64,000 nt of DNA from an uncultured Pelagibacteraceae bacterium (GTDB lineage Bacteria > Pseudomonadota > Alphaproteobacteria > Pelagibacterales > Pelagibacteraceae), in NCBI GenBank assembly GCA_902571525.1, contig CACGCL010000001.1, positions 62,001 to 126,000 on the forward strand, written 5' to 3'. Of this stretch, positions 8,864 to 51,149 are shown one piece after another. Position numbers and translations under genes: made by a program. The stretch's first letter is position 1, and every line of letters starts with the position of its first letter. A model generated the notes under the pieces. That model did no database searches and was not told where the DNA came from. It was given only the letters and a program-made list of their open reading frames with translations.

Positions 8864-10492
8864 ATGAGCCATTACGATACTAATTTAGAAAAAAACGACG
8901 CAAATTTCATTCCGTTAACTCCACTAAGTTTTCTTGAAAGAGCAAAAGATATTTATCCAGATTATGAAGCTTTAATTTACGAAGATAGATCTTACACATG
9001 GGAACAAATTTATAAAAGATGTATAAAATTTGCGAGTGCATTAGAGAAAATTGGTATTAAAGAAGGTGACACTGTTTCAGTGATGGCTTTCAATACGCCT
9101 GAAATTTTTGAAACACACTATTCTGTTCCTATGGCTGGTGCGGTTTTAAACACCATAAATACTAGATTAGATGCAAAAACTGTTGCTTATATTATTGATC
9201 ACAGTGAAGCAAAAGTATTAATAGTTGATAGACAACTTCATTCTATTTTAAACAAAGCTTTGGAGATGTCTAAAAACAAACCTTTAATAATTGATATACA
9301 AGATAAATTTGCGGACCAATCTTTGCTAAAAAAAATTGGTGAAACAGAGTATGAGGATTTTTTAAATACTGGTGACGAAAATTATGCTTGGAAGAAACCG
9401 AAAGACGAGTGGCAGGCAATATCCCTTAGTTACACTTCAGGAACAACTGGCAATCCCAAAGGTGTAGTTTATCATCATCGAGGTTCTTATTTAATGTCTA
9501 CTGGAAGTGCTATTGCATGGAATATGCCTAATAGATTGAATTTTTTAACTGTTGTCCCAATGTTTCATTGTAATGGGTGGGGATATCCATGGACAATTCC
9601 AATGTTAAACGGCAGGACAATTTGCTTAAGAGCAATCGATATTAAAAAAATATTTGAATTAATTGATAAATTTAAGATAACGCATTTTGGTGGAGCACCG
9701 ATTGTTTTAAATATGATTACCGGTGCCTCTGAAAGTGAGCGTAAAAAGCTAAATCATAAAGTTTATGTTTTAACAGCAGGAGCACCGCCTCCAAGTATAA
9801 TATTTAAAAAAATGGAAGCTTTGGGGTTTGAGGTAATGCATGTGTATGGTCTTACCGAAACTTATGGACACATACTTCAGTGCGCATGGAACGAAAATTG
9901 GAATTCTTTTGATGAAGATAAGAAAAATGAAATTAAAGCTAGGCAAGGTGTGAGGTATCCTAATACCGAGGATGTTATGGTAATGGATCCTGAAAGTATG
10001 AAGCCCGTACCAAAAGATGCAAAAACTATTGGGGAGATTATGATTAAAGGCAATATTGTTATGAAAGGTTATTTTAGAGACAAAGATGCGACTGATAAGG
10101 CAATGTCCCATGGATGGTTTCACTCTGGGGATTTAGCTGTAGTAAATCCTGATGGATATATAAAAATAAAAGACAGATCTAAAGACATAATTATTTCGGG
10201 GGGAGAAAATATTTCCTCAATAGAAATTGAAAATACTTTATCCAAACATCCATCTGTTTCAATCGCAGCAGTTGTGGCTAAACCCGATGAAAAGTGGGGA
10301 GAAGTTCCTTGCGCTTTTATCGAAAAAGTTAAAGATAAAGATGTAAGTGAAAAGGAATTGATAGATTTTTGTAGAGAAACCTTAGCAGGCTTTAAAATAC
10401 CAAAAAAAGTTGAATTTTGTGAGCTTCCAAAAACCTCAACTGGTAAAATTCAAAAATTTGAGCTTAGAAAAAAGGCCAAGGAAACTAATTGA
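8864..10492 (+). CDS. Acyl-CoA synthetase, DmdB-like (3-methylmercaptopropionate-CoA ligase candidate)
   Basis: SLSYTSGTTGNPKGVVYHHRG AMP-binding motif; VYGLTETYGH; KTSTGKIQKFELR C-terminal Lys motif. Confidence 0.85.
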   Translation: MSHYDTNLEKNDANFIPLTPLSFLERAKDIYPDYEALIYEDRSYTWEQIYKRCIKFASALEKIGIKEGDTVSVMAFNTPEIFETHYSVPMAGAVLNTINTRLDAKTVAYIIDHSEAKVLIVDRQLHSILNKALEMSKNKPLIIDIQDKFADQSLLKKIGETEYEDFLNTGDENYAWKKPKDEWQAISLSYTSGTTGNPKGVVYHHRGSYLMSTGSAIAWNMPNRLNFLTVVPMFHCNGWGYPWTIPMLNGRTICLRAIDIKKIFELIDKFKITHFGGAPIVLNMITGASESERKKLNHKVYVLTAGAPPPSIIFKKMEALGFEVMHVYGLTETYGHILQCAWNENWNSFDEDKKNEIKARQGVRYPNTEDVMVMDPESMKPVPKDAKTIGEIMIKGNIVMKGYFRDKDATDKAMSHGWFHSGDLAVVNPDGYIKIKDRSKDIIISGGENISSIEIENTLSKHPSVSIAAVVAKPDEKWGEVPCAFIEKVKDKDVSEKELIDFCRETLAGFKIPKKVEFCELPKTSTGKIQKFELRKKAKETN

Positions 10493-11265
10493 TTTTAGAA
10501 ATTGACAATAAGCAAGTCTTTGCTTCTAACGCTGGCAAAGACTTAGACAAGAATAAAGAAACTGTCTTTTTATTGCATGGCAGTGGGCTAACGCATATTG
10601 TTTGGTCCCTAACAGAGCAGTATTTATCAAATAAGAATTACAATATATTGTCTATTGATTTGCCAGGGCATGGAAATTCTGATGGGCCTTGTTTAAGTAC
10701 AATAGAACAAATTTCAGATTGGCTAGATTTAGTTCGGGATCATATAAATGTAGATAAAATATCAATCGTTGGTCATTCTCAAGGGTGTCTAGAAGCAATA
10801 GAATACGGATCAAAATATAAGGACCGAGTGTCAAAACTAGTACTTCTGGCCGGTTCTTATAAAATGCCGGTAAATCAAGACCTTATAGACTTAGCAGACT
10901 CAGGTGACAAAAAAGCTGTGCACCTGATGATGAAATGGGGATATGAAGGATCAAAAAAATTTATTGGTGGAAACCCTGTTGAAAAAATTATCAATTCGTC
11001 AAGAGAGGTTAAAGATATACTAGCTGTAGATCTTAAAGCTTGCAACGACTATCTAAATGGCAAGAAGGCTTCAAGTAAAATTGAGTGTCCAACATTTCTA
11101 ATATTTGGCTCTCTTGATAAAATGGTCCCAGCTGAAAATAGAAAAAAATTTGCTAATTTAATAAAAAACTCAAAAATTGAGATTTTAAGCGAATGCGGAC
11201 ACATGATTATGTTTGAAAAAGCTTTTGAAATGAGAGAAAAGGTGTTTGAATTTTTGAAAAAATGA
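10489..11265 (+). CDS. Alpha/beta hydrolase fold protein
   Basis: [23 protein letters not shown] nucleophile elbow, ECGHM catalytic His. Starts TTG in the track (4-bp overlap with the upstream gene); a first Met is implied by the alternative start codon. Confidence 0.88.
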
Positions 11266-25412: not shown

Positions 25413-26813
25413 ATGTCTGAAAAATTTGACGCAATTGTTATAGGAGGTGGCCCAGGCGGTTACGTTTGCGCAATTAGACTTGCTCAACTAGGAAAAAAAA
25501 CTGCTTGTGTAGAGTACAGAGGATCTTTAGGTGGAACATGTTTAAATATTGGATGTATCCCATCTAAAAATTTATTAAATCTCTCAGAAAATTTTCAAAA
25601 AGCAAAAAATTTCTCGAAAATAGGAATTGAGATAAGTGAAATTAAACTAAATCTCGATAAAATGATGAAGAACAAAGATAAAGCAGTTACTATATTAACT
25701 AAAGGTGTAGAATTTCTATTTAAAAAAAATAAAGTTACCTACTTCAAGGGTTTTGGAAATTTCATTTCTGATAAAAGAATAAAAATTAAAGATGCTGATG
25801 GTAAAGAGACTGAAATTGAGGGAGAAAATTTAATTATAGCAACAGGCTCAGAGCCTTCCAAGATGCCAAATATTAAATTTGACGAGGAACAAATAGTATC
25901 TTCAACAGGCGCACTATCATTAAAAAAAGTACCTAAAAAAATGATTGTTATTGGTGGTGGCTATATAGGATTGGAAATGGGTTCTGTTTGGTCAAGATTA
26001 GGTGCTGATGTGCACGTAATAGAATATTTAGATCATATAACCCCTGGTATGGATAAAGAAATTTCAAATGAATTTATGAAAATTTTAAAAAAACAAAATT
26101 TAAAATTTCATATGAACACTAAAGTAGAAAATATTACAAAACAAAACGAAAATGTACAGATAGATACCGTAGATAGCAAAGGAGAAAAAAAATCTCATAT
26201 TTGTGATGTTGCTTTAATTTCTATAGGGAGAAAAGCTTTCACTGAAAATCTTAATCTTGAAAAAATAAATATAAAAACCGATGAGAAAGGAAGAATAAAA
26301 GTTGATAAAAATTTTAGAACAGATAAAAAAAATATATTTGCTATAGGTGATGTAATCCAGGGGCCGATGTTAGCGCATAAGGCTGAGGAAGAAGGTATAG
26401 CTGTTGCAGAAATTATAGCAGGTCAATCTGGACACGTAAATTATGATTTAATTCCTGGAGTTATATATACTTCTCCGGAGGTAGCAAGTATAGGAAAAAC
26501 AGAAGAACAATTAAAAAAACAAAATATAAATTATAAAATAGGTAAGTTTCCTTTCATGGCAAACTCTAGAGCTAAGGCAATCGATGAACCTGAGGGTTTT
26601 GTTAAAATTTTAGCAGATCATTCAACAGATAAAGTTTTAGGAGTTCATATTATAGGCCCACATGCAGGTGAAATGATAGCAGAAATGGCAATTGCAATGG
26701 AATTTGGTGCAAGTTCTGAGGATATAGCAAGGACATGCCATGCTCACCCTACATTTTCTGAGGCAATCAAAGAAGCCGCATTATCTGTAGACAAAAGACA
26801 AATTCATTCGTAA
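25413..26813 (+). CDS. lpdA: Dihydrolipoyl dehydrogenase
   Basis: GGTCLNIGCIPSKNLL redox motif; AIGDVIQGPMLAHKAEEEG; HAHPTFSEAIKEA. Confidence 0.97.
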   Translation: MSEKFDAIVIGGGPGGYVCAIRLAQLGKKTACVEYRGSLGGTCLNIGCIPSKNLLNLSENFQKAKNFSKIGIEISEIKLNLDKMMKNKDKAVTILTKGVEFLFKKNKVTYFKGFGNFISDKRIKIKDADGKETEIEGENLIIATGSEPSKMPNIKFDEEQIVSSTGALSLKKVPKKMIVIGGGYIGLEMGSVWSRLGADVHVIEYLDHITPGMDKEISNEFMKILKKQNLKFHMNTKVENITKQNENVQIDTVDSKGEKKSHICDVALISIGRKAFTENLNLEKINIKTDEKGRIKVDKNFRTDKKNIFAIGDVIQGPMLAHKAEEEGIAVAEIIAGQSGHVNYDLIPGVIYTSPEVASIGKTEEQLKKQNINYKIGKFPFMANSRAKAIDEPEGFVKILADHSTDKVLGVHIIGPHAGEMIAEMAIAMEFGASSEDIARTCHAHPTFSEAIKEAALSVDKRQIHS

Positions 26814-26874
26814 TTAATTTTTAGTCTAAATTTTACTTATGTCAAAACGCGCTCTTACTAATCAAAAATAAATC

Positions 26875-26880
26875 TATAAT
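26875..26880 (+). promoter_or_regulatory. Perfect -10 hexamer (TATAAT) 10 nt upstream of the oxygenase ATG
   Basis: aatcTATAATagtagtttaaATG; no convincing -35 found. Confidence 0.45.
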
Positions 26881-26890
26881 AGTAGTTTAA

Positions 26891-27886
26891 ATGAAAAACC
26901 CCAATATCAATTTAAATTCTAAAATATGTGATGACACCGATATCAGTAAACCATGGGATAAGGATAATCAGGCCTGGTGGGACTGGTATGTTAGTCTTGC
27001 TGATAATGATGTTAAAGAAGATGAAATCATTAATGTCGATCCCTTACCAGATATTGAAATACCCACAGATGATGAGGTTATCTCGGAATTAGCTGAACCC
27101 TATCTTTTAACTAATGATCAAATTAATTCTTTTAAAAAAAACGGATTCATAAAACTTAAGAGGGTTTTCTCACCTGGGGCTGTGCTAAAACTTCGAGCTG
27201 AGTTAATTAATCTGTTAAAAGAAAAGTTTAATATTGATCCAGATGAAGGGGCACATAACCGTTTCCTTAGTCTTGAAATAATTTGGCCTGATAACGCACT
27301 TCTTCGCGCTTATGTGTTATCACCTCGTCTAGGGCAAATCTCAGCTAATCTTCTTGAAGTACCTGCTGTTAGGCTTTACCATGATAATGTACTAGCTAAA
27401 CAAGCTGGTTGTGGTCGTACCCCATGGCACTTTGACGATCATCATTTTCCTCTAAACACTAATGATGTAATTACCGCTTGGGCGCCAGCACAACCAACAC
27501 CTCTTGAGATGGGACCACTCTCTTTTGCTTATCCACTAGATGTCCACAAATTAATTGATGCTGTTAAGTTTGAAAAGACTGGCACTGGATATGACCGTGG
27601 AGTCTCGGATATTTTTTCAAAAAATAATGTGAGTGTAAATGAAACCCCATTTGAGCTGGGTGAAGTTAGCTTTCATCATAATTTAAATTTTCATACAGCA
27701 TCACGTAACCGTACTAATCGTAGCCGAGTGGTTCTAGCCAATACTTATTACCGAGATGGAGCTAGATTAGTCAATGCTCCTACGATGGTTTCTGGTGACT
27801 GGCAAAAATTTATGCCTAATGTCAAACCAGGAAATGTAGCTGCTAGTCCACTAAATCCAATTTGTTGGCCAATTAAAGACAAATAA
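26891..27886 (+). CDS. Phytanoyl-CoA dioxygenase superfamily (2OG/Fe(II)-type) oxygenase, substrate unknown
   Basis: YLLTNDQINSFKKNGFIKLKRVFSPGAV N-terminus typical of PhyH family; HxD in TPWHFDDHHF and distal HTASRNRTNRSR. Confidence 0.82.
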   Translation: MKNPNINLNSKICDDTDISKPWDKDNQAWWDWYVSLADNDVKEDEIINVDPLPDIEIPTDDEVISELAEPYLLTNDQINSFKKNGFIKLKRVFSPGAVLKLRAELINLLKEKFNIDPDEGAHNRFLSLEIIWPDNALLRAYVLSPRLGQISANLLEVPAVRLYHDNVLAKQAGCGRTPWHFDDHHFPLNTNDVITAWAPAQPTPLEMGPLSFAYPLDVHKLIDAVKFEKTGTGYDRGVSDIFSKNNVSVNETPFELGEVSFHHNLNFHTASRNRTNRSRVVLANTYYRDGARLVNAPTMVSGDWQKFMPNVKPGNVAASPLNPICWPIKDK

Positions 27887-28806
27887 TGAAAAACATAAAT
27901 AATCAGAAGGGATTGAATTCACTCTGGACTGACAGTCTTACTCAAAATCTTCATCCTGATGGAAATGCCTTAGTTGATCATTTAAGAACTATACATCAAG
28001 AACATACTGGATTTACTGAAGCGTGCGCAAGTTCTTGTCGAGATGAAGTTGGACGTAATAGTTATGAATGGTTGGCTGAACTTGTTCCTAATAAAGAAGG
28101 TTTGCGAGTATTAGATCTTGCATGTGGGTCAGGGCCGTTATTAAAAATCTTATATGACCGTAATAAAAAAATGAATTTAAAAGGTATAGACATGTGTCCT
28201 GAGGAATTAGCTTTAGCTAAGTCTCGTTTTACAAACAGTGGAGTTAACCTAATTGAGTCAAAAGCACAAAATTTAATTTCAATCAATGATAACTCTATAG
28301 ATATAGTCTTATGTCATTGGGCTTTAACATTGATGGATCCAGTAACTCCTGTATTAAATGAAGTCAGACGAGTTTTAACTTCTGAAGGTCGGTTTGTTGC
28401 TTTAGTTGATGGACCGATGAATGCAGCACTTGGCTATAGAGAGATACACAATTTAATTTATAGTTATGTTAAGGAAGAAATACCTTGTTATGGAGAAATT
28501 GATTTAGGTGATCCAAGGATACGAGGATCTGATAGTTTAAGTAACCTCGTACAAAGGGTTTTTCCAGAAGCAAATGTAACTATTGAAACAAATGTTGTGT
28601 CTATGGTGGGACCAGTTACCCAAATAGCTGAAATTGCAGCAGGATTTTTTTATGCCGCATATATCTTAAATCCTAAGAAAAGAAAACTAATGATCACAAG
28701 CCTATCTAACTTACTCGAAATACCTAAAGAAACCTCTAATGCTAAAAGACAAGGTCGATTTTCAATGCCAATTAATCGTCTTTTAGTTGCGCCTGGTATA
28801 AAATGA
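27886..28806 (+). CDS. Class I SAM-dependent methyltransferase, substrate unknown
   Basis: Motif I VLDLACGSGPLLKIL; motif II GIDMCPEELALAKSRF; motif IV IDIVLCHWALTLMDPV. Confidence 0.85.
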   Translation: MKNINNQKGLNSLWTDSLTQNLHPDGNALVDHLRTIHQEHTGFTEACASSCRDEVGRNSYEWLAELVPNKEGLRVLDLACGSGPLLKILYDRNKKMNLKGIDMCPEELALAKSRFTNSGVNLIESKAQNLISINDNSIDIVLCHWALTLMDPVTPVLNEVRRVLTSEGRFVALVDGPMNAALGYREIHNLIYSYVKEEIPCYGEIDLGDPRIRGSDSLSNLVQRVFPEANVTIETNVVSMVGPVTQIAEIAAGFFYAAYILNPKKRKLMITSLSNLLEIPKETSNAKRQGRFSMPINRLLVAPGIK

Positions 28807-29726
28807 AATCGTTTTTACAAGAAGTAAGTCTCGGTTTAAATAAAAAAAACAAGAAGTTAAGTTCTAAATGGTTTTATGATTTTCATGGATCCAAACTTTT
28901 TGAACAAATTACTAAGCTGAAAGAATATTACCCAGCACGAACGGAAATAAAAATTTTAAATGATAATAAAATTGAAATTGCAAATAAAATAGGTAGAAGT
29001 GCAGTTTTAATTGAACCAGGTGCTGGTGACATTAAAAAAATAGAAATTTTTCTGAGCAGCTTAGATAAGCCAAAAAAATATGTACCGTTAGATATTTCCA
29101 AAGACTATATGATCAAAATATCTAAAGGTTTTAAGAAAAAATTTCCGAAAGTAGTCATAACTCCAAAAGGATATGACTTTTCCGGAAATAATAAACTGCC
29201 ATTTAAAATTAATTCATCAGAAAATATAATTATTTTTTTTCCAGGATCAACCATAGGTAATTTTGAAAAAAAGGATGCTATTAAATTTTTAAAAATGCTT
29301 AAATTTAAATTTAAAGCAAAAAAAATTATCATTGGTGCCGACTTAATTAAAAATATTCCAACTCTAATTTCCGCTTACGATGATAAAAAAGGTGTAACTG
29401 CAAAATTCAACAAAAATATTTTAAAAAGAATAAATACAGAATTAGGTGGAGATATAAACCTAAATTTCTATAAACATCTAGCGATTTATAACAAATCAAA
29501 AAAAAGAATAGAGATGAGATTAAAAGCTAAAAAAAATAATACTATCAGTATCAATGGTTCAAAATATTTAATTAAAAAAAATGAGGAGATTCACACTGAG
29601 AATTCTCATAAATATACGATAAGATCGTTCAAAAATTTAGCAAATAAAGCAGGGTGGAGAATCAAGAAAACCTGGGTCGATGACAAAAAACTTTTTAGTG
29701 TTCATTTTCTAGATCTAGCTCTATAA
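28803..29726 (+). CDS. EgtD-like (histidine Nalpha-methyltransferase family) methyltransferase
   Basis: KWFYDFHGSKLFEQITKLKEYYPARTE, LIEPGAGDIKKIE, FFPGSTIGNF are EgtD-family signatures; 4-bp overlap with the preceding gene. Confidence 0.85.
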   Translation: MKSFLQEVSLGLNKKNKKLSSKWFYDFHGSKLFEQITKLKEYYPARTEIKILNDNKIEIANKIGRSAVLIEPGAGDIKKIEIFLSSLDKPKKYVPLDISKDYMIKISKGFKKKFPKVVITPKGYDFSGNNKLPFKINSSENIIIFFPGSTIGNFEKKDAIKFLKMLKFKFKAKKIIIGADLIKNIPTLISAYDDKKGVTAKFNKNILKRINTELGGDINLNFYKHLAIYNKSKKRIEMRLKAKKNNTISINGSKYLIKKNEEIHTENSHKYTIRSFKNLANKAGWRIKKTWVDDKKLFSVHFLDLAL

Positions 29727-29827: not shown

Positions 29828-30045
29828 TAGAATAGAATTTAAATTTTCTTGCTCATTATAAGAAGTTAAACTAAAGTTTAAGGATAGCTAGGATTGTTTA
29901 GAAATATTTTAATTAGACGATAAGTCTTGATATAATCTTGGCACTTAAAGTAAAATGAAAATAGCGCTTTTAGAATTATTGTATATCAATATAAATAGAG
30001 CGAAAATAAATTACTGATGCACTCTTAATATATTTTATATTATAA

Positions 30046-32007
30046 ATGAACTTTCCTATTCTTATTCCAAATATATTTGATTATCCATTTACTTATACTT
30101 CAGACATTAATTTAAATGTTGGAGATTATGTTGAGGTGCCCTTTGGGAAAAAAAAAATCAATGGTGTAGTTTGGAATGAATTTGAAAATACAAAATCAAA
30201 AAATTTTACATTAAAAAAAGTAATAAAAAAACTAGATGTTAATCCACTAAAAATATCAACCATAAATTTCTTGAATTGGTTTTCAAGATACAACATAGTT
30301 CCTAAAGGAATGGCTTTAAAACTTCATTTGTTGAGTAATTATGCTATTGAAAATAAGTCAAATGATAATTTCATTGAATATGAGCTAAAAGTAAAAAGTT
30401 CTATTTATGAATTAAACAATGAGCAGCTTAAGTGTTTTTCAGGATTATTGAAGAAAAATAATAAATTCAACGTTAGTGTTCTTCAAGGAACAACTGGCTC
30501 AGGAAAAACTCTAGTATATTTCAATTTAATTAAGGATAAAATTAAAAAAAATAAACAAGCGCTAATACTATTACCTGAAATAGGTTTAGTAGGTGAATTT
30601 CAGAAAAAATTTATTGATTTTTTTGGTTTCAAACCTGCAGTCTGGCATTCTGGAATAACCCTAAAAAATAAAAAAAAAATATGGAATGGTTTAAGTAATG
30701 GAAAAATTAAAGCGATTATTGGGGCAAGATCCTCTCTTTTTTTACCTTTTAAAGAGTTGGGAGTTATAATTGTTGACGAGGAACACGACCAATCCTTTAA
30801 ACAAGACGAGGGTGTATCATATAATGCAAGAGATATGGCTATATCAAGAGCTTCTTATGAAAATATTCCAATAAACCTAATATCTGCAGTTCCATCAATT
30901 GAAACGTATAATAACATAATAAAAGGTAAATATTTCTCTTATAGAATTTTAAATAGATACAAAAATGCAAAATTACCAGAATATGAGCTAATTGATTTGA
31001 CAAAAGAAAAAAAAAATACAGGTAATTTACTTTCAGAAAAAATTGTAGATAGGGTTGAATATCATTTAAAGAAAAATGATCAGGTACTTTTTTTTGTTAA
31101 TCGAAGAGGATATTCTCCTTTTGTCATTTGTAAAAAATGTTTAAAGACCTTTACTTGTCCAAAGTGCTCTATAAATCTTGTCTATCATAAAAAAATAAAT
31201 AAAATTTTATGTCATTATTGTGGTTATAAAAATAATTTAGATACAAATTGTAAAAAAAATCATAAGGAACAATGTGAATTTATTTATAGTGGCTCAGGTG
31301 TCGAAAAAATATTAGAGGAGGTAAAAAAGAAATTCCCAGGAAAAAAAACTGTTATTTTTTCAAGTGATACAATTAAAAAGAAAAATTCACAATATGAGAT
31401 AGAAAAAATTATTAATAATGAAACTAAAATTTTGATTGGAACTCAACTTATTTCAAAAGGTTTTCATTTTCCAAATTTAAATTGTATAGTTATTTTAGAT
31501 TTAGACTTTGCATTAAGAGGCTTTGATATAAGAAGCGTAGAAAAAACAGTGCAGTTATATCATCAATTATCGGGTAGAGCTGGCAGAGAGGGAAAGCCAT
31601 CAAAAGTATATTTTCAAACAATCAACAAAAAAAACAATATGATATCGCAAATTACAAATCCTGACCCAGATGTTTTTTTGAAAAAAGAACTTGAATTAAG
31701 AAAAAAATTTAGTTTACCGCCCTTTGAAAGATTCGTATCAATTATAATCAGTTGTAAGAGAGCCGATATGTCAGAAAAGATCGCATATAATTTAGTAAAC
31801 TCTCTTAAAATAAAAACACAAGGAAATATTTTAGGTCCTGTTAATGCTCCAATTTATAAAATAAGAGGTAGATATAGAAATAGAATACTTATTAGATCAA
31901 GTAAAAATATTAAAATTCAACAACAAATACTAAATACTATTAAAAATTTTAAACAACCAGCTGAAATAAAACTTTCAGTTGATGTTGATCCAATAAACTT
32001 CAATTAA
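30046..32007 (+). CDS. priA: Primosomal protein N' (PriA helicase)
   Basis: LQGTTGSGKTLVYF; VDEEHDQSFKQDEG; zinc-binding CKKCLKTFTCPKCSINLVYH..CHYCG; LSGRAGREGKPS. Confidence 0.96.
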   Translation: MNFPILIPNIFDYPFTYTSDINLNVGDYVEVPFGKKKINGVVWNEFENTKSKNFTLKKVIKKLDVNPLKISTINFLNWFSRYNIVPKGMALKLHLLSNYAIENKSNDNFIEYELKVKSSIYELNNEQLKCFSGLLKKNNKFNVSVLQGTTGSGKTLVYFNLIKDKIKKNKQALILLPEIGLVGEFQKKFIDFFGFKPAVWHSGITLKNKKKIWNGLSNGKIKAIIGARSSLFLPFKELGVIIVDEEHDQSFKQDEGVSYNARDMAISRASYENIPINLISAVPSIETYNNIIKGKYFSYRILNRYKNAKLPEYELIDLTKEKKNTGNLLSEKIVDRVEYHLKKNDQVLFFVNRRGYSPFVICKKCLKTFTCPKCSINLVYHKKINKILCHYCGYKNNLDTNCKKNHKEQCEFIYSGSGVEKILEEVKKKFPGKKTVIFSSDTIKKKNSQYEIEKIINNETKILIGTQLISKGFHFPNLNCIVILDLDFALRGFDIRSVEKTVQLYHQLSGRAGREGKPSKVYFQTINKKNNMISQITNPDPDVFLKKELELRKKFSLPPFERFVSIIISCKRADMSEKIAYNLVNSLKIKTQGNILGPVNAPIYKIRGRYRNRILIRSSKNIKIQQQILNTIKNFKQPAEIKLSVDVDPINFN

Positions 32008-47168: not shown

Positions 47169-48066
47169 TAATATATTAATTGTTGGATGCGGACTTATAG
47201 GATCTTCAATTTTAAGAGGCTCAATAAGTAAAAATATTTCAAAAAATATATATGTTTTTGAAAAATCTAAAAAGAATATAACTTTTATAAAAAAAATTAG
47301 TAAAAAAATTAAATTTCTTAATAATATAAATCATCAGGTGTCTAATATGGATCTAATTGTACTTAGTACTCACATGAGTCAATATAAGATTATAATTAGA
47401 AAATTACAAAAATATGTCTCCTCAAAAAACACAATAACCGATACAGGATCTACTAAACGCAATATTGAAAAGTTAATTGATAAAAACAAAAAATTTAAAG
47501 AAATATTTGTACCAAGCCATCCAATTGCTGGATCAGAAGTTAGCGGACCTGAGCATGGAAATAAAAACTTATTTAAAGATAAATGGTGTATTATTTTAAA
47601 AAATAGAATCAAATCTAAGAATAAATTAAAGAAGGTTGAAAGATTTTGGAAAAAACTTGGATCAAAAATAATATTCATGAATTCTGTTGATCATGATAAA
47701 ATTTTTTCGATAACTAGTCATTTACCACATTTAATTGCATACAATCTAGTTAAAACTGCTATTGATTTTCAAAAGAGGAATAAAAAGAATATAATAAAAT
47801 ATAGCGCTGGTGGTTTAAGAGATTTTTCAAGAACAGCAGCATCTAATGAAATAATGTGGCGTGATATTTTCTTCGAAAACAAAGATAATATTATTAATTC
47901 AATCAATATTTTTATTAAAAACTTAAATAGTTTTAAAAAACTTATTGAAAATCAAAACAATAAAAGCATCCTTAAAATATTGAAAAATTCAAAAAAAGTA
48001 CGTAAGGAAATAATTGACTTGAAACAAGATATATCAAAGCCTAATTTTGGCAGAGACATACTTTAA
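47161..48066 (+). CDS. tyrA: Prephenate/arogenate dehydrogenase
   Basis: IVGCGLIGSSILRG; PSHPIAGSEVSGPEHGNKNLF; FSITSHLPHLIAYNLV. Confidence 0.93.
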   Translation: MFNNILIVGCGLIGSSILRGSISKNISKNIYVFEKSKKNITFIKKISKKIKFLNNINHQVSNMDLIVLSTHMSQYKIIIRKLQKYVSSKNTITDTGSTKRNIEKLIDKNKKFKEIFVPSHPIAGSEVSGPEHGNKNLFKDKWCIILKNRIKSKNKLKKVERFWKKLGSKIIFMNSVDHDKIFSITSHLPHLIAYNLVKTAIDFQKRNKKNIIKYSAGGLRDFSRTAASNEIMWRDIFFENKDNIINSINIFIKNLNSFKKLIENQNNKSILKILKNSKKVRKEIIDLKQDISKPNFGRDIL

Positions 48067-49580
48067 ATCAGACTTTTTAATGCTGTAAGATAATTCTCAT
48101 ACCCATTATATGATTTGAGAGATGTACTATAAATCGGCCTTCTAGCTTGATTAAAACTTATTGTTTTTATTACTCTTTTATTTTCGTGATGTTTAAGACA
48201 GTTTTCATCCCAGTCTAAAGAACAAAATTTTAGTAATTTTTTAATTTCGTGATCGGTATTTTTCACAAGGTTTTCATACTTCAGATCATAAATCTCATTT
48301 GAGAAAAATCTTTTCCAAAAAAGCATTAAATCTTGATATGATTTGTAATATTTAGATAAATCATTTAGGTCATTTCCAAAATCTATTTTTGTTGGAAAGT
48401 AATTTTTGTAAATTGACCAACAATTATCAATAGGATTTCGCACAATATTTATAAATTTGGAATTTGGTAGAAATTTGAGAATAAATCCTACATAAAAAAA
48501 ATTCAATGGAGCTTTATCCGTAAAAACTTTGTTTGAATCATTAATATTGGATACAAAATTCAAGTATTCCTTATTGCATTTTAACAAGTCATTATTATTT
48601 AAATTTTTTTTCGTTTTAAAATAATCATTATATATTTTTTGTATATAAGGTAATTCACCTCCACCGATTACATTCTTATGGGATGATAAAATTTGTTCAG
48701 TCAAAGATGTACCTGATCTTGGCATGCCTATAATAAATATAAATTTTCTATTTTGTATATTCAATCTACAATCATCTAAAGACTCAAATTTCTCTTTGAT
48801 TGCATCGAATCGCTTTTTACTTTTCTCAAAATTATAGTTACTAATTTTTTTGGATATATCGTTAGCTTTTTTATAATTATCAAAAGACTCAACATAGTTT
48901 TTTTGGTCCCCATATGCTTTTCCTAGAGCAAAATACAAATGTACTAGCGAATTTTCCTCGAGTTTCATATTAGATAATTTTTCTTTTAGATTTAAAAAGT
49001 GTTTATGTTTAGAATCATATTTTTCCATTTGTGAAATTAACCTATCTGCCTCAGTAAAATCAGATTTAATCTTTAACATCTGAAAATATAATTTTTTAGA
49101 CTTTTCAAATTTACCTAAGCTGTTGTACAAACCTGCCAAGTTGTACATTACTAGTAAAGCATCTGATTTTATAGATAAAATTTTTTCATAAATAATTACA
49201 GCTTCGTCAGCTTGATCTAAATCTTTTTTTAAATTAGCTAAATTATTTAATAAACTTAAATTATTATTATCTATTTCCAGACCCTTTTTATATTTTGCTT
49301 CAGCTTTTTTGTATTCATAAATATTTGAGTAAAACATTCCTAAATTATTTAAAAAATCACTATTTTTAGGACTTTTTTTTAATGCCTTGTTCATTATATC
49401 AATAGCTTTATAAGTTTCACCTTTGTTATTGTAAGCCAAACATATTAAATTATAAAAAACGTCTATATTATTATTTTTTAAGATCAAGCTACTTTCCTCA
49501 ATGACTTCATCATATTTTTTTTCTAAAAATTTTTTTTTTAATTCTTCAAATTTTTTTTTTAACAAAGTCCGCTCAGTCAT
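48063..49580 (-). CDS. TPR-repeat sulfotransferase family protein (copy 1)
   Basis: N-terminal TPR units; PAPS-binding-like IIGMPRSGTSLTEQILSSH; KFINIVRNPIDNCWSIYKNYF. Confidence 0.88.
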   Translation of the reverse strand: MTERTLLKKKFEELKKKFLEKKYDEVIEESSLILKNNNIDVFYNLICLAYNNKGETYKAIDIMNKALKKSPKNSDFLNNLGMFYSNIYEYKKAEAKYKKGLEIDNNNLSLLNNLANLKKDLDQADEAVIIYEKILSIKSDALLVMYNLAGLYNSLGKFEKSKKLYFQMLKIKSDFTEADRLISQMEKYDSKHKHFLNLKEKLSNMKLEENSLVHLYFALGKAYGDQKNYVESFDNYKKANDISKKISNYNFEKSKKRFDAIKEKFESLDDCRLNIQNRKFIFIIGMPRSGTSLTEQILSSHKNVIGGGELPYIQKIYNDYFKTKKNLNNNDLLKCNKEYLNFVSNINDSNKVFTDKAPLNFFYVGFILKFLPNSKFINIVRNPIDNCWSIYKNYFPTKIDFGNDLNDLSKYYKSYQDLMLFWKRFFSNEIYDLKYENLVKNTDHEIKKLLKFCSLDWDENCLKHHENKRVIKTISFNQARRPIYSTSLKSYNGYENYLTALKSLI

Positions 49581-49634
49581 TTAATTCAAATAATTCTTAT
49601 TGTAGGTGTTTCCTTTATCAATCTAGTAAATTTT

Positions 49635-51149
49635 TTAGATTAATTCTTTAAGAGGTTCAAGATAATTTTCATATCCACTAAATGATTTTATGGATGATTT
49701 GTAAATTGGTTTCCTAGCCTGATTAAAACTTATAGTTTTGATTGCTCTTTTGTTTTTATAATGACTTAAACAATTTTCGTCCCAATCTAATGAACAAAAC
49801 TTTAACAATTTTTCTACTTCAAATTTAGTATTAACAACTAAATTTTCATATTGAAGGTCGTAAATATGACTCGGAAAGGATTTTTTCCAAAAATTCATTA
49901 AACTTTGATATTGTTTATAATAATTAACTAAATCTTCCAAATCGTCAGCAAAATTAATCTTCGTAGGAAAACAATTCTTATACATAGACCAGCAATTATC
50001 TACTGGATTCCTGATTAAATTAATAAATTTAGAATTTGGTAAAAATTTTAGAATAAACCCCAAGTAGAAAAAGTTTAATGGTGCTTTATCTGTAAAAAAT
50101 TTGTTTGAGTCATCAAGATTTGATGTGAATTCAATATAATCTTTCTTACAATTAAGCAAGTCATCCTCAACTATATTTTCTTTTTTCTCAATATATTTTT
50201 TAAATATTTTCTCTAAGTATGGTAATTCACCTCCACCAAATACATTTTTATGAGATGAAAGAATTTGTTCAGTCAAAGAAGTCCCAGATCTTGGTAAACC
50301 AATGATAAATAGAAAATTCCTACTGTTTGTATTTAATTGTGCTTTGCTTAATGAACAAAACTTATTTTTAATTAAAACAAATTTTTTTTTATCTCTTTCA
50401 AATTTATATTTACTTAATCTTTTTGACAGGCAATTAGCCTTTTTATAATTATCAAAAGACTCTTTAAATTTTTTTTGATCATTATATGCTTTTCCTAAAG
50501 CATAATGTAAATGCAATAATGATTTATCGTCTAGTTTCTTATTAGATAATTTTTTCTTCATATTCAGAAAATGCGGATGATTTCCATCATATTTTGTAGT
50601 TTGTGAAATCATCCTATCCGCCATTGTTAGTTCCGTTTTAATACTTAACATTTTTTCTAATAATTTTTTTGATTCTTTGAATTTTCCCATTTGGTTATAT
50701 AAAAGTGCCAAGTTATAAATAACAATAATCGCGTTTGGTTGAATAGATAAAATTTTTTTAAAAATTTCGACAGCTTCTTCAGACTTGTATAAACTTTTTT
50801 TTAAATTTCCTAAATTATTTAATATTTCAAGATTGTTTTCGTCAATTTCTAAACCTTTGTTGTAAAATTCCTCAGCCTTCTTGTACTTATATATATTTGT
50901 AAAACTCATTCCGATGTTATTATAAAAGTCAGCATTTTTTGAGTTATGGCTTAATGCCTCGTTCATTATATCAATAGCTTTATAAGTTTCACCTTTGTTA
51001 TTAAATGCCAAACACAATAAATTATAAAAAACATCTATTTTATTTTCTTTTAATATTTTTTCACATTCTTTAATTACCTCATCATTTCTATTTTCTAAAA
51101 ATTTTTTTTTTAATTCATCAAATTTTTTTTTTAAATGCAATGTACTCAT
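49635..51149 (-). CDS. TPR-repeat sulfotransferase family protein (copy 2, tandem paralog)
   Basis: Same architecture and extensive identity to copy 1: IIGLPRSGTSLTEQILSSHKNVFGGGELPYLEKIF. Confidence 0.88.
   Translation of the reverse strand: MSTLHLKKKFDELKKKFLENRNDEVIKECEKILKENKIDVFYNLLCLAFNNKGETYKAIDIMNEALSHNSKNADFYNNIGMSFTNIYKYKKAEEFYNKGLEIDENNLEILNNLGNLKKSLYKSEEAVEIFKKILSIQPNAIIVIYNLALLYNQMGKFKESKKLLEKMLSIKTELTMADRMISQTTKYDGNHPHFLNMKKKLSNKKLDDKSLLHLHYALGKAYNDQKKFKESFDNYKKANCLSKRLSKYKFERDKKKFVLIKNKFCSLSKAQLNTNSRNFLFIIGLPRSGTSLTEQILSSHKNVFGGGELPYLEKIFKKYIEKKENIVEDDLLNCKKDYIEFTSNLDDSNKFFTDKAPLNFFYLGFILKFLPNSKFINLIRNPVDNCWSMYKNCFPTKINFADDLEDLVNYYKQYQSLMNFWKKSFPSHIYDLQYENLVVNTKFEVEKLLKFCSLDWDENCLSHYKNKRAIKTISFNQARKPIYKSSIKSFSGYENYLEPLKELI

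Follow-up and report, generated by a model that had tools for sequence, protein, structure and literature searches.

The junction between the core genes lpdA and priA of an uncultured member of the Pelagibacteraceae (SAR11) carries three overlapping genes, encoding a PhyH-family Fe(II)/2-oxoglutarate oxygenase (PhyH), a class I SAM-dependent methyltransferase (MT, or MT-A) and the L-histidine N-alpha-trimethyltransferase EgtD, whose product is hercynine, and the horizontal mobility of this cassette is well supported. The genes probably serve to make a histidine-derived betaine and then to modify it. From gene content, linkage and co-occurrence, all observed directly, we infer substrates, chemistry and product, and rate at somewhat under an even chance the reading that this mobile operon constitutes a hercynine-tailoring, histidine-betaine pathway. 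No marine bacterial group is more abundant than SAR11, and small betaines are a main currency between it and phytoplankton; if the reading is true, a mobile pathway starting at histidine and ending before ergothioneine would point to an unknown seawater metabolite. The window analysed is a stretch of 64,000 nucleotides, to which the coordinates in Table 1 refer.

Table 1. Features of the cassette and of the lpdA-priA junction in the window
Feature	Coordinates	Strand	Evidence
lpdA, core gene, 3' end = insertion point	25413..26813	+	
Conserved 5' element, TGTCAAAACGCGCTCTTACTAAT...TATAAT	26840..26880	+	kept upstream of PhyH across insertion sites
PhyH-family Fe(II)/2-oxoglutarate oxygenase (PhyH), 331 aa	26891..27886	+	PF05721 E=1.4e-11, HxD...H...R motif
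Class I SAM-dependent methyltransferase (MT, MT-A), 306 aa	27886..28806	+	Methyltransf_11 E=8e-17
EgtD, L-histidine N-alpha-trimethyltransferase (product hercynine)	28803..29726	+	TIGR03438 345.9 bits, residues kept
Insertion scar, displaced ancestral lpdA 3' end (..CACTCTTAA), 17 nt before priA	30006..30028	+	match to empty-site lpdA 3' ends
priA, core gene, far side of junction	30046..32007	+	17-33 nt after lpdA in 17/28 informative genomes

An earlier, sequence-only reading had described a two-gene cassette of PhyH and MT. Both ORFs were recovered with the boundaries that it gave, and the unit proved to be larger, consisting of three overlapping genes and extending through EgtD to position 29726. 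MT and EgtD overlap by 4 bp (ATGA), and PhyH/MT and MT/EgtD overlaps of 1-4 bp occur in most copies, at several sites. The PF05721 match of PhyH reaches 45.6 bits, against a cut-off of 22, and H180-x-D182, H268 and R279 do not vary among 25 homologues, whose identity goes down to 70%. PhyH shares its fold family and the HxD...H...R motif with SnoK/SnoN, EctD and phytanoyl-CoA hydroxylase, SnoK (5epa) being its nearest PDB sequence (E=1.8e-10), although it gives only weak sequence and profile matches to characterised members and its clade is distinguished from them by a conserved N-terminal block, PWD-DNQAWWDWY. The predicted PhyH structure, with a pLDDT of 45, was too poor for pocket inspection and was not used. 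For MT, the family profile search matched no equivalog, and a fold search with its AlphaFold model (pLDDT 89) returned generic small-molecule methyltransferases as the best PDB folds. EgtD lies above the curated equivalog cut-off of TIGR03438 (345.9 bits against 290.9) and keeps the equivalents of all five of N166, Y206, M252, E282 and S284, which we take to be the histidine-binding residues in the M. smegmatis EgtD structure. An Rfam search gave no match inside the cassette; elsewhere in the window, an ffh sRNA (RF01793) lies at 838-890, directly ahead of ffh.

The proposal that the genes occupy a core-genome junction with variable cargo was borne out by comparing the lpdA-priA interval among SAR11 genomes. 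Among 28 informative junctions, 17 were empty (spacing as in Table 1), nine carried other cargo and two the cassette, and an empty site, a filled site and boundary marks, which together characterise a mobile insertion, are provided by the 17 empty junctions and the scar. The latter was detected by local matching with the lpdA 3' ends of genomes whose junction is empty, none of 300 shuffles being as good, and it is found at the distance from priA of the true lpdA stop in those genomes. Most cassette-bearing genomes retain such a remnant of the older lpdA 3' end ahead of priA; it is clearer in L096 (30 nt), L112 and L068, and weaker in the window, where it is seen only against empty-site relatives, whereas L077, L099 and L105 have no detectable remnant at this position. 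A direct repeat between the window lpdA and its own spacer did not reach significance, 183 of 200 shuffles doing as well. The displaced lpdA end before priA therefore suggests that insertion took place at the end of lpdA, which the incoming DNA supplied anew, the old end having been left behind as the scar; the insertion itself may have occurred by site-specific or homologous recombination. The ORFs that lie between lpdA and priA include no integrase or transposase gene, and a search of viral contigs and phage records yielded no relatives.

The lpdA-priA junction is a hotspot: L211, L212, L214, L215, L220, L224, L228, L234 and L236 carry different cargo there, including a 214-aa methyltransferase-like gene and TPR proteins; no lpdA scar was found at those of the other-cargo sites where this was tested (L211, L212, L220 and L224). 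Elsewhere in the window, at 48063-51149, two similar TPR proteins whose C-terminal part is sulfotransferase-like are encoded in tandem, apparently as the result of a duplication. The polymorphic gene indels of SAR11 core regions (PMC2217521) are likewise small insertions between core genes, present or absent by genome, but the cassette differs from them in its lpdA 3'-end scar, its travelling 5' element and its several unrelated sites.

This 5' element, TGTCAAAACGCGC...TATAAT, lies ahead of PhyH at lpdA, EgtB and other sites, and TCAAAACGC was found no more than 70 nt upstream of PhyH in 44 of 48 copies from these sites; beyond it, the upstream sequence is dissimilar between insertion sites. 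At the lepA site the element has a degenerate form, and the superoxide dismutase site lacks it. Allowing up to two mismatches, TGTCAAAACGCGCNNTTA occurs exactly once in nine of ten cassette genomes and in none of the five others searched, and the idea that the pattern marks a regulon was rejected, as none of the 15 genomes has a second one. The TATAAT that had been read as the cassette's own promoter is present at 26875-26880, although it is not among the sites listed by a consensus promoter scan, which gives no excess of sites over shuffles; a promoter upstream of PhyH is supported because the region is kept across insertion sites. The element may serve as a promoter/operator or mark a recombination end; in the favoured reading, the operon brings its own promoter/operator-like element. 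Comparison across sites revealed no conserved 3' end of the cassette. Together, scar and travelling 5' element offer a concrete and checkable view of the way in which small operons are acquired by streamlined genomes.

A scan of named genomes located 80 loci, of which 73 are Pelagibacteraceae copies, and copies of 70-84% identity occur in Marivita, Rhodosalinus, another member of the Rhodobacteraceae, Thioalkalivibrio, a 'Burkholderiales' genome and two uncultured proteobacteria. Relatives on plasmids (H1-H3, at 30-43% identity) were set aside, their neighbourhoods being unrelated. PhyH and MT adjoin in every SAR11 copy examined, in contexts that include the lpdA-priA junction, an EgtB-glutathione locus, the lepA and superoxide dismutase sites, and others. 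In the PhyH tree the SAR11 copies are nested among those of non-SAR11 marine proteobacteria, and the lpdA-site copies are not united in one clade, although several deep branches are weak and starred branches are compatible with a single origin. PhyH identity is 0.86 at priA identities of 0.62 and 0.83 alike, and cassette divergence is thus decoupled from that of the core. It is on this decoupling, the tree, the variable junction, the scar and the travelling 5' element that the case for horizontal mobility rests; vertical descent of both genes across all of SAR11, under one codon bias, is at odds with the decoupling and with the presence of PhyH in 25 of the 398 genomes of the order.

The hand counts of the sequence-only reading were exact: CGN accounts for 11 of 14 Arg codons in PhyH and 10 of 17 in MT, against 1/7 in EgtD, 0/10 in lpdA and 52/604 (8.6%) in the 46 other window genes summed. 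Relative to those 46 genes the excess is highly significant for PhyH (Fisher p = 1.5e-9) and MT (p = 5e-7), whereas the EgtD share is no different (p = 0.47). Codon-usage z values are -6.3 for PhyH and -2.7 for MT, with a standard deviation of 1.2 for other window genes; ranked by codon usage, the window's second most atypical gene is an alpha/beta-hydrolase gene at 10489-11265 (z -4.1, CGN 2/5). The impression that the two genes are visibly richer in G/C holds in so far as their GC contents, 0.38 (PhyH) and 0.35 (MT), exceed the mean of 0.30 (sd 0.04). The excess sits mostly at codon positions 1 and 2 and therefore mostly reflects amino-acid content; at four-fold sites, GC is 0.22 in PhyH and 0.15 in MT, near the 0.10-0.21 found across nine core genes, and these sites are largely ameliorated to host values.

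The Arg bias is common to all 73 SAR11 copies found, at many genomic sites, with 70% CGN overall in PhyH and 63% in MT, and it falls at the same alignment columns among some 73-74 copies, which differ from one another at a median of 42% of four-fold sites (59% for core genes). Since the bias is common to all SAR11 copies and third positions are near host values, the Arg codons of PhyH and MT are a slow-fading fossil; they fade slowest because a change from CGT or CGC to AGR takes two substitutions. The 'relatively recent' acquisition earlier deduced from them does not stand. A recent, single acquisition by the window lineage would account for codon usage unlike that of the flanking genes and for the scarcity of PhyH in the order, yet it is very improbable given the sharing of position-specific Arg codons among copies so diverged, the near-complete amelioration of four-fold sites and the erosion of the scar. 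In our reading, SAR11 gained PhyH-MT well before the window genome diverged and the pair then spread among lineages. The fossil also illustrates why codon bias by itself misdates transfers of such genes.

EgtD is of native, SAR11-like composition and its sister in the tree is an EgtB-linked SAR11 EgtD; the operon is therefore probably chimeric, with foreign PhyH-MT joined to a resident EgtD. A PhyH-MT pair from other marine proteobacteria would have been joined to a SAR11-type EgtD and have spread among SAR11 lineages, entering several sites, the lpdA 3' end included. The PhyH-adjacent EgtDs fall into three groups, and a test rejected their forming one clade (p=6e-5); PhyH-MT therefore joined EgtD independently at least three times. 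Across the 398 genomes of the order, an EgtD-family gene is present in 24 of 25 PhyH carriers and in 26 of 373 others (p=1.4e-23, a value which, like the other co-occurrence p-values, is inflated by physical linkage and shared ancestry). Removal of four variant carriers of the SAR11 subgroup g283, whose M252->G change was assigned from the subgroup, the variant residues having been read in five g283 genomes, gives a conservative count for canonical EgtD of 20/25 against 24/373.

Cassette EgtD resembles that of the ergothioneine pathway (EgtD with EgtB) in its profile score and histidine-binding residues, and in some SAR11 genomes the PhyH-MT pair lies between EgtB and EgtD. About 20 SAR11 loci show the gene order GCL-GshB-EamA-MFS-EgtB-PhyH-MT-EgtD and L139 the order EgtD-PhyH-MT-EgtB, arrangements which could mean that PhyH-MT acts on ergothioneine, after EgtB, rather than on hercynine. 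This is unlikely, because 17 of the 24 PhyH carriers with an EgtD-family gene are without EgtB, including G670, scored as 100% complete, and none of the 15 lpdA-site genomes, among them that of the window (78% complete), has EgtB (TIGR03440); SAR11 genomes are mostly 70-90% complete and single absences are weak. PhyH occurs in 17 of 20 genomes with EgtD and without EgtB and in 7 of 30 with EgtB (p=3e-5, g283 variants counted in). The absence of EgtB from the 17 carriers and the 15 lpdA-site genomes therefore favours hercynine, not ergothioneine, as the branch point, and ergothioneine is not the likely end product. To our knowledge, PhyH and MT are part of no known ergothioneine pathway. A literature search found no such pathway with PhyH and MT, and nothing relevant joining hercynine with PhyH, or ergothioneine with SAR11.

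A stronger competitor is that PhyH-MT constitutes a pathway of its own with a non-hercynine substrate, often carried together with EgtD since both belong to betaine/methyl metabolism. Rhodosalinus holds PhyH-MT with no EgtD at all and g283 holds it with EgtD only as the M252->G variant at another locus, and these are real counter-examples to strict hercynine dependence; the g283 genes had been considered as unlinked support for the EgtD association and were discounted at the residue check. Moreover, in a clade of 56% identity the partners of PhyH-MT are a second methyltransferase, MT-B, and SSS and MFS transporters instead of EgtD. Set against this are the presence of EgtD elsewhere in all five genomes of that clade, the three independent physical pairings with EgtD and the frequency of PhyH in genomes with EgtD and without EgtB, and we consider a separate substrate a real, if minority, possibility. 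MT-B was found in 11 of 11 non-SAR11 carriers and in none of 26 SAR11 genomes tested (25 of them PhyH carriers), a difference that counts against the hercynine reading; the SAR11 version may therefore be a shortened pathway. Members of the MT-B family are encoded at L058 4671-5507 (-), with homologues in L237-L247.

For the hercynine-tailoring reading, the steps would be as follows. EgtD would trimethylate histidine to hercynine, a step strongly indicated by its family and residues; PhyH would oxidise hercynine; and MT would methylate either hercynine or the oxidised intermediate, the outcome being a modified, sulfur-free hercynine formed without EgtB. That SAR11 possesses an undescribed, EgtB-independent pathway from hercynine to a new oxidised, methylated histidine betaine, encoded by a mobile operon which enters and regenerates the lpdA 3' end, is put forward tentatively as a serious possibility.

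Several other loci merit mention. A combined glutathione/ergothioneine gene set, comprising glutamate-cysteine ligase, glutathione synthase, two transporters, EgtB, PhyH, MT and EgtD, is present at L053 9813-16013, in L072 and L085, and in others. In g283 (L249 2704-5277, L259 2256-8285 and L260 5052-10852), the M252->G EgtD-like gene adjoins an apparent ProX/ProW betaine transporter and genes that, on reading the sequences, resemble a TmpA/TmpB pair; this EgtD-like gene may encode a betaine-forming methyltransferase for another substrate. At L254 1704-6064 and L055 2553-6938, SAR11 EgtB-EgtD pairs adjoin genes which, by eye, resemble those of GcvT-type folate-dependent enzymes and MetF.
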